This document shows, one piece after another, positions 25,069 to 30,890 of a stretch of 64,000 bases of DNA. The stretch spans positions 62,001 to 126,000 of IMG/VR virus record IMGVR_UViG_3300038301_000548; one strand, written 5' to 3'. The position numbers and the translations under genes are program-made. Below the pieces are notes generated by a model. The model was not told the DNA's origin, made no database searches, and saw only the letters and a program-made list of their open reading frames with translations. The stretch is from a virus. Every line of letters begins with the position of its first letter. Position 1 is the first letter of the stretch.

Positions 25069-25521
25069 TTATTTCACCAGAAAAACAAGAAGAACAGTCA
25101 AAGCACTACCTGTGGCAACGCCACCGAGGGCCCAGTAATGACTATAATCATTTGGTCGCTTCAAGGCTGCAGTCTCTAGTCTTTCAATTTCCTCATTCTT
25201 AATCGCTAAAATGTTTGCACTCTCTTCCTCTATCGTCAGTATCCTAAGATTTAGGTTTTTAATATCTAGTGAGTATTTAGCCCTTTCCCTCTCTAAAGCT
25301 TGGTCGACTTCTAGATCGCAACGGGCCCGAGCGAATTCAGATGTTGCTTGTATTTTGGCCGTCGCGACATCGTCGAAACACCAAGCATCAAAATGTGTCA
25401 CCTCACCCTTGAGGACTCTAGAAAATCTTCCATTTTCCGGGTTGGCAAGAACAGAACAGGGAAAGAAACTAATCAATAAAAGTAAAGCCAAAGCTCTTTT
25501 CAATTTCAGCGCGAATAACAT
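25069..25521 (-). CDS. Exported coiled-coil protein with C-terminal membrane anchor (spanin-like)
   Basis: 150-aa protein. The ATG at 25521 has AAGGAGAACCAG before it, so I reject the upstream TTG. Residues 5-27 form a signal sequence (RALALLLLISFFPCSVLA with a signal-peptidase-I-type VLA end). Residues 50-115 are charged coiled coil (LEVDQALERERAKYSLDIKN), and residues 128-150 a C-terminal transmembrane segment. It starts 53 bases inside the 134-aa gene in another frame. Exported coiled coil plus overlap with an inner-membrane coiled-coil gene resembles phage spanin pairs, but there is no lipobox, so the match is incomplete. Confidence 0.65.
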   Translation of the reverse strand: MLFALKLKRALALLLLISFFPCSVLANPENGRFSRVLKGEVTHFDAWCFDDVATAKIQATSEFARARCDLEVDQALERERAKYSLDIKNLNLRILTIEEESANILAIKNEEIERLETAALKRPNDYSHYWALGGVATGSALTVLLVFLVK

Positions 25522-25873
25522 CTGGTTCTCCTTTTGACTTTTTAACAATTTCTTTTATTCTCTTCTTCTCTTTTGTACTTAGCTTCTTCTCTTTTTCTTT
25601 GAATTTCTCTTCAATCATAATGACTGCTTCATGGTAATCTGCTATTAACTTATCTCTTTCTATGATCTCATTATTGTGTCTTTTTTTTAATTCTTTTATT
25701 TGTTTATCATAAGAATCTTTCTTGGCAGCCAAGACATCGACTAGGGCGTCTGAGTTTCTTTTTGCAAACAAGTAAACGACTACTGACCATATAAGTGCCA
25801 ATGGTACTTGCCAGTAAGTCTTCAGCCAAAGCCAAATCTTGCCGAAGGCCTCTTTCATAACTATCCATTGCAT
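25469..25873 (-). CDS. Membrane-anchored coiled-coil protein (inner spanin-like)
   Basis: 134-aa protein. I choose the ATG at 25873, preceded by GGGGAAT and six bases past the previous stop; the longer frame would run through the holin-like gene. Residues 10-36 include a transmembrane helix (VPLALIWSVVVYLFAKR), and residues 40-115 are a strong Lys/Glu coiled coil (KDSYDKQIKELKKRHNNEI). One N-terminal anchor and a long coiled coil is the layout of an inner-membrane spanin. It lies directly after a holin-like gene and overlaps the next membrane protein gene. Function is inferred from layout. Confidence 0.65.
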   Translation of the reverse strand: MQWIVMKEAFGKIWLWLKTYWQVPLALIWSVVVYLFAKRNSDALVDVLAAKKDSYDKQIKELKKRHNNEIIERDKLIADYHEAVIMIEEKFKEKEKKLSTKEKKRIKEIVKKSKGEPDVIRAEIEKSFGFTFID

Positions 25874-25878
25874 CGGTA

Positions 25879-26085
25879 TTATTCCCCGGTTGGGCCGTGC
25901 TTCCATTTGACTGCCATGTCGACCAAGGCTTGGGTACCAATGTAAGCTAAAGTTATCGCTGTCCAATTATCACTGGTAACTGTGCCATACGCACATAGGC
26001 CTGTGGCTGTCAACCATGCCAGGAACTTTCTAGATATAAACCTTTCTGTATATTTATCGGCAAACGCCTTAATTTGTGCCACCAT
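25879..26085 (-). CDS. Small two-segment membrane protein, holin-like
   Basis: 68-aa protein with a basic lead (KYTERFISRKF), two hydrophobic segments (about residues 20-35 and 40-57) and a short hydrophilic end. Size and layout fit a small holin, which would permeabilise the inner membrane to time lysis. AGGAGGACAAG gives a very strong ribosome-binding site. It begins a run with two coiled-coil membrane proteins. No endolysin is recognisable in the window, so the lysis role is tentative. Confidence 0.6.
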   Translation of the reverse strand: MVAQIKAFADKYTERFISRKFLAWLTATGLCAYGTVTSDNWTAITLAYIGTQALVDMAVKWKHGPTGE

Positions 26086-26094
26086 CTTGTCCTC

Positions 26095-29000
26095 CTAGAT
26101 GTTTACGTGAGCGAAGCCATCTTTTCGCTCAATGTTTATTTGCATATCGACGCAGTCCTTGAGTCCGTCTAAATGAGATATGAGTAAGACAGTTTTGAAG
26201 TATCCCTTAATCATATCAAGAATTCGGACAAAGCCTTCCATGTTCTCCTCATCCAATGCGGTACCAGGCTCGTCTAATATAAATAGGTCCGACTTTGGTA
26301 AACTGGACACAGTTAAAAAAGCTAGGCGGATGGCCATCGATGCAATTGTCTTCTCAGCTCCGGAGCCCATCTCTAGGGGTCGGGGCTCATGTTTTGCGTG
26401 TTTAATAAATATATCAAGCTTATCTTCATTGTTTGTAATAAACACTTCGAACTCTACAATATTTGTAAGTATCTTGGCGATCTCTTGATTAATATATGGA
26501 AGCCTCCTTTTGATGATCTCGTAGGAGACGCCGTTCGGATGACAACAAGTCATGAGTAGGTGATATGCCGCAAAGTCGTCTTTAAGACATTCATATTCTG
26601 ACTTTTGCTCTTCAATATGGCGGAGCTTTTGTTCTAGCGATCCCTGCTTCTTGTGCAGGTTTAGGATTTTACTCTCACAGGTTTCAAGCTCAGATTCAAA
26701 ATCTTTGATTTCTGCCTGGGTATTGTCTCTCAGAACTAGCAATTCTTTCAAATTCTCAATTGCATCCCGGTTTTGTTCATATTCTGTATTTTTAACTTGA
26801 AGCTGTTCTAGTTCTACTTGCTCCTTAAACAGCAAGCTATCAGCCTTCTCGATCGCTAACTTGCTAGTTGCAATCGATGTTGCAAGGGTGTTCCTCTTAT
26901 CGACTAAGAGGTTGTATTTTTCAATATGCTCTGATACCCTTTCAGGCTCAAGGCCACTGAGTTGAGCACCAAGCGCGTTGATGGATGACGCACAGTGGGA
27001 TACCTTGTCTTCTGTTATTTGAATAAGACTCCCCGCTGAGTGTGCATCTCTTATAAACTTACAAGACGGGTATTCTGAGCCACACGGAACTTCTGACAAG
27101 AGCCTCTGCTTTTGCATGTAATTTTCTTTTAAAGAAGATTCTGACTCCATCTCCTTGAGAAGAGACGATAGTTCTGTCTTCTTGGTGTCAATAGCTTCTT
27201 TCTTTTTCTCGTAAGAGGCAATATCGAACTGGGAAAGAAATGACGCAATCTTTTCGAACTTCTCTTCACTCAGTTTTAATTCCTTTATTGCTTCCGTCTT
27301 CCTGGAGGTTTCTCTTAGGATACTCTCTTTCTTTCCAGAAATCTTTCTTGACGTTAAAACTGGGTCTATAATTTCTGCTGGTACTGATTCTATCTTGAGA
27401 ATTATCTCATTAAGTCTAGTGTTACTTTCTTGTTTTTCTTGCTTAAGGGATAGGCAGTTAGCCTTGTTCGATTCTATTCCAAGCTCACTGTTTACAATAT
27501 CCTTCTTAAGAGATGTAATCTCTGTTTCGAAATCAATGCCTTCTAGGCGGCGCAAAGCTGCTTTGGTGACTGCTGATTCTTCTTTAGCTAATTTAAATTT
27601 CTTATCAAAAATCTCAAGATCTAAAAACTTAGCTAAGAATTCTTTTCTTTTGGTCGAACCTTCATTAACAAACGACAAAGAATCTAACTGGCTAGCCATC
27701 GATGTGGTCAAAAAGTCTTGAATGGTCCCAAAGTACTTTCTAACGTTCTTATCTGTGTCTTGCCTTGATGTTCCGTTTAAGCCCTCAGTATTGCCCGTCA
27801 AGTCTCTTTTAAAGAATTCCAGGTCAGTGCTAGCTTCTTTGGTCTCTACGCCCTTCAGGCGCTTGGTATACTTCTCTGAGACTCTTTCTACTATATAATC
27901 TGTATCATCTATCTTTATTGTCGCTGTGGCTTTACAATCAGACATATTCTGGTTGATGATATTGAGGTTCTTTCTGATCGATTTTGAAGTTGAATTGTAT
28001 AAAGAATATAACAAGGTATCAACAATTGAAGACTTACCTGAGTAGTTCTTGCCAAATATACCGACAATACCTTCCAGCTTTGTAAAGTCAATGCTATTCC
28101 CTTCTCCATAATTGAATAGGTTGTCCCACTCTAAAGACTGCAATGACCAGTGCACGTTTCGCATAACATCTTCGTTCTCTTCTACTTGGACGTTATACTT
28201 CTTATTTAGGTCGTACACCTTCTTCATTACCGTATCTGTCACTTCGAATTCTTTAAGATACTCCTCCATGAGGGATTCTTGCGTTTTAAGATCGCGAAGG
28301 TCCTCTTGTTTCATGCCTTCTGGTGCCTTCACTGTGATCTGTTTGCCGGCGGCCCGGTTGAGGTAAGTTACCGATTCTGGACTATATCGATATTTTGCAA
28401 CATCCACTGCCTTGCGGACCTTATCCAGTGTGACATTCTCATCCGAAACAATACGAAGCCGGGCGCCTTCGGGAGGCTTCTTTCTTGGGAGGTTTCCGTT
28501 CTTAGTTAGGGCAAGAGTAACGAAAGGCTTTGGATTGTCAAAGGTAATGAGCCTGTTGGTAAAATTATCTCTATCTTCAATATCCCATAGGAGATAACCT
28601 TTATCCAGTGACTCACCAAAATTTTGTTGAACGGTAGAACCAGCATACCAAACCCTCCCTTCTTTATCTAGTTGTTGGGTCTTGTGGATATCTCCAAGAA
28701 AACCAAAGTCAAAATCGTCAAAGATGCTAATATCATGATCACCCCCTAGTGTCCAGTTGCTATCTGTTTTTGATTTATCAATCGCTCCGTGATAAAGAGC
28801 GATATTTATTGCCGACTTGTCTGTTGGTGCTACCCAATTGTCCTCATCAAAAACAGAAAGAACGTTCAAACAGAAGTTGTCATCTATTTTGACTTCTCCT
28901 GCATTCTTAATTAGTGTAAGCCTTGGGGAATTAATCGCTCTAACAATTGGCGACAGTGCATCCTGCCTGCTTCCATTGCGTAAATTACCATCGTGGTTTC

Positions 29001-29232
29001 CCAATATAATATAAGTTGGGGCGATTGCAGACAGTTCCTCAAAGAACTCACGGCAAAGATCAACGAACTCTGGCGAGATCTGTGTCTTTGTGTGTGCGAT
29101 ATCTCCGCAGTGAATGATATAATCTACATTCTCTTCTTTTAGTGATTTGTATAATTGTTTAAATACCTCGCGATATTCAAAGTGATATTTTAGGTTTCGG
29201 ATATGGGTATCCGCGATATGAGCAAATCTCAT
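26095..29232 (-). CDS. Fused SbcD/Mre11 nuclease and SbcC/Rad50 ATPase (gp47-gp46 fusion)
   Basis: 1045-aa recombination nuclease joining two normally separate subunits. Residues 1-350 are a metallophosphoesterase: ADTH (D8, H10), HCGD (D44), GNHDG (N79-D81), YHGAID and FLGDIHK. Residues about 370-1045 are an SMC-type ATPase: Walker A FGKNYSGKSS near residue 395, long coiled coils, a zinc-hook-like apex CGSEYPSCKF near 715-722, signature GSGAEKT near 953, and Walker B LFILDEPGTALDEEN near 980-990, then LLISHLD. The Mre11-Rad50 pair (T4 gp47/gp46, 339 and 560 aa) resects DNA ends for recombination-dependent replication. No stop or frameshift separates the halves. GGAG precedes the ATG. Confidence 0.93.
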   Translation of the reverse strand: MRFAHIADTHIRNLKYHFEYREVFKQLYKSLKEENVDYIIHCGDIAHTKTQISPEFVDLCREFFEELSAIAPTYIILGNHDGNLRNGSRQDALSPIVRAINSPRLTLIKNAGEVKIDDNFCLNVLSVFDEDNWVAPTDKSAINIALYHGAIDKSKTDSNWTLGGDHDISIFDDFDFGFLGDIHKTQQLDKEGRVWYAGSTVQQNFGESLDKGYLLWDIEDRDNFTNRLITFDNPKPFVTLALTKNGNLPRKKPPEGARLRIVSDENVTLDKVRKAVDVAKYRYSPESVTYLNRAAGKQITVKAPEGMKQEDLRDLKTQESLMEEYLKEFEVTDTVMKKVYDLNKKYNVQVEENEDVMRNVHWSLQSLEWDNLFNYGEGNSIDFTKLEGIVGIFGKNYSGKSSIVDTLLYSLYNSTSKSIRKNLNIINQNMSDCKATATIKIDDTDYIVERVSEKYTKRLKGVETKEASTDLEFFKRDLTGNTEGLNGTSRQDTDKNVRKYFGTIQDFLTTSMASQLDSLSFVNEGSTKRKEFLAKFLDLEIFDKKFKLAKEESAVTKAALRRLEGIDFETEITSLKKDIVNSELGIESNKANCLSLKQEKQESNTRLNEIILKIESVPAEIIDPVLTSRKISGKKESILRETSRKTEAIKELKLSEEKFEKIASFLSQFDIASYEKKKEAIDTKKTELSSLLKEMESESSLKENYMQKQRLLSEVPCGSEYPSCKFIRDAHSAGSLIQITEDKVSHCASSINALGAQLSGLEPERVSEHIEKYNLLVDKRNTLATSIATSKLAIEKADSLLFKEQVELEQLQVKNTEYEQNRDAIENLKELLVLRDNTQAEIKDFESELETCESKILNLHKKQGSLEQKLRHIEEQKSEYECLKDDFAAYHLLMTCCHPNGVSYEIIKRRLPYINQEIAKILTNIVEFEVFITNNEDKLDIFIKHAKHEPRPLEMGSGAEKTIASMAIRLAFLTVSSLPKSDLFILDEPGTALDEENMEGFVRILDMIKGYFKTVLLISHLDGLKDCVDMQINIERKDGFAHVNI

Positions 29233-29464: not shown

Positions 29465-30382
29465 TCAAAAGTTAAGTTTATATCTTAAATAGTCAATTTC
29501 TGCAATAAGCTCCGCATTTATTTTCCTGTCGAGAAACTCGATCTTAGGAATTTCGGCAGCGTCTGTATATGGCGAAATTTTAATTGTCTTGCTAAGTATG
29601 CCGTATTCCTTGAACCTCTTCGAGATAACCAATTCCTTGTCTTTCGCATCATCGTCGAGGGCTAAGTATATCTCTGACTTGTTCCTACAAATTTTCTGAA
29701 ACAGCTTGTGGTCTTCTCTTAGAGTCGAACCTAGAAGGGGTATTGCATTTTTATGCCTTATAGCATCGAACACCCCCTCAACAATTACTATATCAGCTTC
29801 CCAATCTATGTTTAAGTCGTTAAAGATAATGTTTTTGCTGACTTTGGGATTCTTATATTTCATCCAGTCTTCTCTATATGTCCTAGAGACAAAGTAATTG
29901 ACTCGGCCGTGGAGGTTAAATGAGGGAACAATAATCCTGCCTTCATACTCTCCATAATCGCAAAAGCCAATCTTCCATTTTAGAATGTCGATATCGGTGA
30001 TGCCTCTAGAGTAAAGGTACTCTAAAGCTTTCTTTTTTTCTTTTCCCTTTTCTCCGGTAAGAGTTTTAAATTCTTCCGGCAGGTTAATCGCGATGTCGGG
30101 CGCTTCGTCAGGTTCTTCAAAAATAAACTCGTATTGAGACAAGTCAACTTCATCTGCAATATTAGACCACTCGCTATAGTACTCAGGCGCGAATTTGCTG
30201 ATTAAATACGAGATCTTGTTTCCTGAAAAATCACAAACCCAACACTTGAAAGCATTTTTGTCAATGTTTACAGACATCTTAAGTTTATCATGAGTGCACT
30301 TTGGGCACTGAAATAGTAGCTCTTCTCCAGAGACCCAATGGGGCCCGAGGGCTTTCTTAAGTATTTGTGCCTTGTCTGACAA
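29465..30382 (-). CDS. DNA primase, DnaG-type (gp61-like)
   Basis: Primase that lays RNA primers for lagging-strand synthesis. N-terminal zinc ribbon: CPKC (C26, C29) and CWVC (C47, C50). TOPRIM domain: IVIVEGVFDAIRHKNAIPLLGS (E202) and LALDDDAK (D243-D245). At 305 aa it is close to T4 gp61 (342 aa) and lacks the C-terminal helicase-binding domain of bacterial DnaG. The start is TTG at 30382: AGCGGGAGAAGAGA precedes it, the next Met lies after the zinc ribbon, and the gene overlaps the end of the resolvase gene. No replicative helicase is in the window. Confidence 0.9.
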   Translation of the reverse strand: MSDKAQILKKALGPHWVSGEELLFQCPKCTHDKLKMSVNIDKNAFKCWVCDFSGNKISYLISKFAPEYYSEWSNIADEVDLSQYEFIFEEPDEAPDIAINLPEEFKTLTGEKGKEKKKALEYLYSRGITDIDILKWKIGFCDYGEYEGRIIVPSFNLHGRVNYFVSRTYREDWMKYKNPKVSKNIIFNDLNIDWEADIVIVEGVFDAIRHKNAIPLLGSTLREDHKLFQKICRNKSEIYLALDDDAKDKELVISKRFKEYGILSKTIKISPYTDAAEIPKIEFLDRKINAELIAEIDYLRYKLNF

Positions 30383-30890
30383 TCTCTTCTCCCGCTAGTG
30401 CTATTATAATACTGTCGCACAGATCATACATCCCGGGCTTGGGATTTCCATGCTTTGTATATAATATCTCAATATTGGGGTATTTGTCAAGTACAAATTG
30501 AAGAACTTTTTCTTTGGCATTATCGCCTCGCTTTATACCTACTCCAGCTTTCTTGCGCGCTGTTGTGGCTGCGACCATCTCAGGTTGGATTTCAAAATTT
30601 TCATAGCAAAGCCACGACACGATACCGTTGAAGCGGGACAGAGTAGATAGAGTCTGCGCAGACGAGAATCCTGATCGAAATGATTGCAGGGATTGTTCTA
30701 CGAATATATTAGTTATATCATAGTTTGTCTTAATAGTCAATAAGTTTTTTCTTAATAAGTCGGCTTTATCGTATAGGGTCGGGAAATGCTTTTTGTTTCT
30801 GGTGTCCCAATATACACTCTCTAATACTTTTCCATCTTCGATCACTGTAGCACCAGTGATAGATGTTGAGATATCAAGTCCGAGAATCAT
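30357..30890 (-). CDS. RuvC-like Holliday junction resolvase
   Basis: 177-aa RNase H-fold nuclease. Acidic active-site residues visible: D6 in MILGLDIS, E65 in IFVEQS, and D156 and D159 in MYDLCDSIIIAL. The basic segment TTARKKAGVGIKRGDNAKEK (110-128) fits DNA binding. RuvC-type enzymes cut four-way junctions; in phages they resolve branched DNA before packaging. AAGGAAAAAT precedes the ATG. It overlaps both the J-domain gene (17 bases) and the primase gene (26 bases), so it is translated with them. Confidence 0.9.
   Translation of the reverse strand: MILGLDISTSITGATVIEDGKVLESVYWDTRNKKHFPTLYDKADLLRKNLLTIKTNYDITNIFVEQSLQSFRSGFSSAQTLSTLSRFNGIVSWLCYENFEIQPEMVAATTARKKAGVGIKRGDNAKEKVLQFVLDKYPNIEILYTKHGNPKPGMYDLCDSIIIALAGEEIVRQGTNT

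Follow-up and report, generated by a model that had tools for sequence, protein, structure and literature searches.

The question raised by this locus is whether a single reading frame carrying the motifs of both the SbcD/Mre11 nuclease and the SbcC/Rad50 ATPase encodes a genuine single-chain enzyme and, if so, how such an enzyme would work. The window, i.e. the whole stretch of 64,000 nucleotides analysed in the current work, is part of a virus record of 190,698 bases (≈190 kb). The reading favoured here, with a probability of roughly 0.85, is that of a single-chain Mre11-Rad50 (SbcDC) of the Mimivirus R555/marine phage type in a T4-like marine phage, which would form an M2R2 particle with a C-x6-C metal hook and would act as an ATP-gated Mn nuclease in the tethering and resection of DNA ends.

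The original prediction of one 1045-aa SbcD-SbcC frame without a stop was borne out, with the addition that the gene is located on the minus strand, which had not been stated. The frame begins with an ATG immediately preceded 5' by a Shine-Dalgarno-like GGAG motif and contains zero internal stops, and all of the motifs previously quoted were located in it, being ADTH (residues 7-10), HCGD (41-44) and GNHDG (78-82) on the nuclease side, and GKNYSGKSS (394-402), GSGAEKT (956-962) and LFILDEP (983-989) on the ATPase side. Pfam assigned Metallophos to residues 1-176 (E 3.5e-14), AAA_23 to 367-611, and SMC_N, while the PHROGs matches were SbcD-like phrog_100 (1-340) and SbcC-like phrog_77 (303-1043). 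The features of the gene are as follows:

26095..29232, minus: fused SbcD/Mre11-SbcC/Rad50 gene, 1045 aa plus stop
28543..29232, minus: Mre11 metallophosphoesterase core, residues 1-230
28357..28524, minus: Mre11 capping-domain region, residues 237-292 (by AlphaFold2 model position and homology)
28177..28290, minus: helix-loop-helix candidate, helices 315-329 and 333-352 (AlphaFold2 model, assigned by homology)
28153..28176, minus: junction, residues 353-360, with invariant R358-N359, followed by invariant W362
27616..28152, minus: Rad50 N-terminal ATPase lobe, residues 361-539, Walker A GKNYSGKSS
27091..27615, minus: ascending coiled-coil arm, residues 540-714 (model)
27061..27084, minus: hook apex C717-x6-C724 (CGSEYPSC, residues 717-724)
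26542..27060, minus: descending coiled-coil arm, residues 725-897 (model)
26098..26541, minus: Rad50 C-terminal ATPase lobe, residues 898-1045, signature GSGAEKT, Walker B LFILDEP, H-switch SH

The nuclease half has the metallophosphoesterase core expected of Mre11/SbcD with its conserved ligands (D8, H10, D44, N79, H80, H148 and H183, invariant in 72 distinct homologue sequences), save the first His of GHxH, and the ATPase half has the split ABC ATPase of Rad50/SbcC arranged around a long antiparallel coiled coil. In the AlphaFold2 single-chain model (mean pLDDT 81.9, pTM 0.46, the latter value leaving the relative placement of the two halves uncertain) the capping-like region 237-292 is modelled as strands plus a helix, and the coiled-coil arms extend for ≈175 residues in each direction. 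The helix-loop-helix of Mre11 is the part that binds Rad50; here the first Rad50 strand, at residue 361, directly follows helices 315-352, so that the linker amounts to ≈8 residues (353-360). Foldseek searches of the BFVD returned, as leading near-full-length matches, giant-virus fusions (Tupanvirus, Harvfovirus and Catovirus), which came first, together with Tenacibaculum phages, and those of the PDB returned Mre11 and Rad50/SbcC chains.

Relatives are numerous, far more so than chance would allow: a scan of IMG/VR found at least 598 candidate stretches encoding relatives, 80 of which, being 51-84% identical, were retained. A search with the family alignment was positive in 16 of 17 phage or virus records, and each of the ten marine records (10/10) contained one full-length fused copy. 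No second copy of either half was found in the 190,698-base record, the ends of which are perhaps incomplete; it contains one Metallophos and one Rad50-type ATPase.

In place of the CxxC zinc hook that characterises the Rad50/SbcC apex, the fusion carries C-x6-C, as had been pointed out originally, and this spacing is common in close homologues, albeit not universal: of the 72 homologues, 61 show C-x6-C or, in L071 and L075, C-x7-C, and the other 11 show CxxC. It could be argued from this spacing, characterised Rad50 hooks having CxxC (PMC9569753), that the apex is not a metal hook, its cysteines being incidental and the arms meeting otherwise. Such an explanation is unlikely, considering that a Cys pair is present at the apex in 72/72 homologues despite a variable surrounding coil (window means of ≈0.25-0.55 identity to the query), and that CxxC substitutes for C-x6-C several times at the same site. 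Non-CxxC Rad50 hooks did not surface in the literature among open-access titles and abstracts.

The variation of the apex was followed on a tree from which the hook columns had been omitted (a quick search, with support by SH-aLRT only), and at least six switches of hook type are needed on it. The L016-L024 group, ≈72% identical overall to the query, has CxxC in a shortened apex (CTSC in L016). All of the fused relatives examined beyond the marine clade (Microcystis phage Mel-JY01, L107, LR756508, LR756501, L097, L100, L102, pT24, PTm1 and MA9V-1) have CxxC, as do 11 of the 12 unfused phage SbcC/Rad50 proteins examined, Moorella MTATph1 being of neither type. Since CxxC is found outside the marine clade, the C-x6-C spacing, which is real, is derived inside that clade. 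L057, L059 and L061 share an HEYDPxCxxCC-like apex resembling the HEYDPKCKHCC of Mel-JY01, and since they are not sisters of one another this suggests that the apex has been exchanged. We propose, tentatively and as a possibility that is rather doubtful, that the marine clade has a new metal-ligand spacing, C-x6/7-C, which would be swapped with CxxC as a small cassette; in view of the Mel-JY01-like apex of these three non-sisters, the hook type may be a self-recognition element.

Motif V of the nuclease half reads GDIH, with D181 replacing the usual first His of GHxH in 72/72 homologues. This invariance, together with the same His-to-Asp change reported in motif V of Mimivirus R555 (PMC3175470), could be taken to mean that the Mre11 half has lost its nuclease function and has a purely structural or DNA-binding role. 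That is a decidedly improbable explanation, as the remaining metal ligands are all invariant, dN is far below dS across the nuclease half, and GDxH is also present in T5-like D12 proteins and Rhizobium phage SbcD. An Asp, moreover, can act as a Mn ligand. The invariant Asp could alter or weaken nuclease activity, although the T5-like D12 proteins have it too; our literature search found no biochemistry of any phage Mre11-Rad50 fusion.

The junction between the halves was considered with regard to whether one or two polypeptides are produced. In-frame ATG/GTG/TTG codons at residues 331-364 would permit an internal start that gives free Rad50 as well, the enzyme then being a mixture of fused and free subunits; this is very improbable, given that M357 is a Met in just 13 of the 72 homologues and that a start-like codon with a Shine-Dalgarno-like motif occurs within residues 336-375 in 9/72, as compared to 50/72 at the true start, with no conserved internal start codon or ribosome site at the junction among these homologues. 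The fusion chain may be split post-translationally by proteolysis. R358, N359 and W362 are invariant in the 72 sequences, and for the pair L004/L008 dN and dS are 0.023 and 0.775 for the whole gene, and 0.008 and 1.137 for residues 330-380, the statement that dN is far below dS applying to close pairs, as dS is saturated in more distant ones. Judging by these rates, the junction is under purifying selection.

An assembly or sequencing artefact joining two neighbouring genes, for which the Listeria LMTA-57 'fusion' (set apart from the split LP-039 genes by one base within an A homopolymer) offers a public precedent, has practically no likelihood here, since all 80 retained IMG/VR relatives, which come from many samples, are 51-84% identical and have the junction residues invariant, show one open frame across all matched residues, contig ends aside, with neither a stop nor a frameshift between the halves, and cultured phage Mel-JY01 has the full fusion frame as well. 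The fusion is real, functional-looking and of a known type. LMTA-57 itself, annotated as a 'recombination exonuclease' fusion (L082:2908-5937, versus L085:1501-4531 for the split LP-039 genes), was set aside as a cultured fusion carrier, its fusion likely reflecting either a recent frameshift or an error in sequencing.

The supposed novelty of the fused architecture was, on the other hand, overstated: viral fusions of this kind have been on record since 2011, and they are common among marine phages. Yoshida, Claverie and Ogata reported Mre11 fused to Rad50 in Mimivirus and a Bacillus phage as well as in plasmids, bacteria and eukaryotes, named the domain order and the retained helix-loop-helix, proposed recurrent fusion events, inferred that phage-borne homologues abound in marine metagenomes, and attributed the marine homologues mostly to phages on the grounds of neighbouring phage primases and viral-fraction reads (PMC3175470). 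A 2021 survey of jumbo phages reports SbcC/SbcD as near universal, with the fusion unremarked in the part of that survey consulted (PMC7824862). The refuting evidence named originally, i.e. cultured phages with this fusion, exists in part, fused genes being found in cultured Microcystis phage Mel-JY01, Tenacibaculum phages pT24 and PTm1 and Chryseobacterium phage MA9V-1; the uncultured 735-kb phage LR756501 encodes a 1202-aa fusion. New in the current work are the full-length evidence on long contigs, the congruent trees of the two halves, and the hook variation.

In trees of the individual halves, a check that had been proposed originally, a branch supported at 97/92 (nuclease) and 99/95 (ATPase) separates 22/22 sampled phage fusions from the other rows. 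The fused rows had been collected by their similarity to queries that were themselves fused; a number of branches are long, and rooting relied on five divergent cellular rows. Both trees have an identical main split inside the fused clade, and the halves are co-inherited; this congruence is consistent with a single fusion event in the ancestor of the sampled phages. This points to one old phage fusion, versus the recurrent fusions proposed in 2011 (PMC3175470), the trees being composed without giant-virus, plasmid, eukaryotic and other cellular fusions and the earlier multiple-fusion inference concerning all life.

A cellular origin was also considered and rejected, the full-length fused matches in bacterial genome records being virus-like contigs binned in MAGs (L111, apparently the same contig as L066, and L112). 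Partial fusion frames occur in bacterial genome records (L113, L114 and L115), the remaining cellular matches being separate frames, and a plasmid search gave one weak partial match. In CP070664, a WOR-3 MAG labelled as a single chromosome, front residues 2-627 (55% identical) and back residues 542-1047 (43%) of the marine fusion lie ≈1.4 Mb apart (L113/L114), possibly as viral sequence wrongly joined into the MAG. In the uncultured 484-kb phage LR756508 (L083:3944-8166) a frame of 305 aa interrupts the fused gene just past motif V, much as a homing element would; it has zinc-ribbon-like cysteines and a TnsA-like endonuclease domain (PF08722), and Rfam gave no support for a group I intron there. 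The Mel-JY01 fusion (L170:5174-8374) is publicly annotated as 'AAA domain containing protein' only, and would therefore be missed by searches for SbcD/SbcC annotations.

As to the genomic context, the two genes upstream of the fusion are:

29465..30382, minus: DNA primase (phrog_47), the gene preceding the fusion
30357..30890, minus: RuvC-like Holliday junction resolvase (phrog_159), of the same conserved block

In Mel-JY01, in L107 and in all marine loci whose flanks are long enough, the primase is upstream of the fusion; these marine loci also share the block RuvC-primase-fusion-(small genes)-terminase, extra genes being inserted in some. The portal, major head and terminase proteins match T4-type families, the terminase being closest to those of Flavobacterium immuto phages and Mel-JY01 (44-45%). 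The record contains one RecA-like and one DnaB-like gene, and no B-family DNA polymerase was found in it. Downstream of the fusion (25069-26085) are three small genes of 68, 165 and 159 aa, conserved in most marine loci and giving no Pfam match above the cut-off; one has a membrane segment and a charged coil, the next overlaps it and has a signal-like start, and by these traits they look like a membrane/spanin-type lysis set.

With respect to known systems, the fusion shares with the Mimivirus R555 type (PMC3175470) the domain order, the single open frame, the retained capping and helix-loop-helix regions, the short linker and the motif V change, and the R555-type marine metagenomic homologues have phage primase neighbours on their scaffolds, as here. 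R555, compared by description, has 1351 aa as opposed to 1045 aa and C-x6-C in the phage fusion, and belongs to Mimivirus rather than to a T4-like phage of ≈190 kb. Mel-JY01 (PP395634) likewise encodes a full-length fusion (1066 aa) with the primase upstream in a 190-kb genome, and its terminase is 43.5% identical to that of the window; it differs in its CxxC hook (CKHC) and in its position on a separate sister branch. The fusions of pT24, PTm1, MA9V-1 and LR756501 are alike in the single frame, the motif V Asp and membership of the same clade in both half trees, and unlike in their size (≈1200-1330 aa), longer Rad50 half and CxxC hook, all of them being distant relatives (21-24% identity in the LR756501 group). 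T4 gp47/gp46, T5 D12/D13 and the Herelleviridae and cyanophage SbcD/SbcC pairs have the same domains in the gene order D before C, and presumably serve the same pathway, but they are encoded by two genes, have CxxC in 11 of 12 examined and fall outside the fused clade in both trees; the two separate genes of the T4 type are replaced here by one frame with a single copy of each domain in the record. Bacillus phage 0305phi8-36 also encodes a single chain, reported without the capping and helix-loop-helix regions and without one P-loop segment (PMC3175470).

In the proposed single-chain Mre11-Rad50, the N-terminal nuclease would lead through the capping and helix-loop-helix regions straight into the Rad50 N lobe, and a pair of such chains would assemble into the usual M2R2 particle, the arms of which would be closed at the apex by the metal-binding C-x6-C hook in place of CxxC. 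Through its ATP cycle, Rad50 would gate the Mn-dependent nuclease, and DNA ends would be tethered and resected for a RecA/UvsX-type recombinase in recombination-dependent replication and repair. By analogy with T4 gp46/gp47, end resection and tethering for recombination-dependent replication is the most likely role. The earlier suggestion that fusion fixes a one-to-one stoichiometry changes little, because Mre11 and Rad50 make a 2:2 complex even when unfused; the plainer consequences are obligate coupling and co-inheritance.

The window represents a long-contig case that fits the 2011 inference of marine phage fusions (PMC3175470), and, to judge by how abundant the fusion is among marine phages, the ATP-gated cycle seems to tolerate a covalent link. 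A compact one-gene Mre11-Rad50 with all domains offers a handy model of a complex that is hard to handle. The hook variation is the less expected and most interesting part: the alternation of CxxC and C-x6/7-C in close relatives (≈72% identical) provides ready-made variants for probing what a Rad50 hook requires and, if the self-recognition proposal were true, the hook type would keep the Rad50 of a co-infecting phage or of the host out of mixed dimers.
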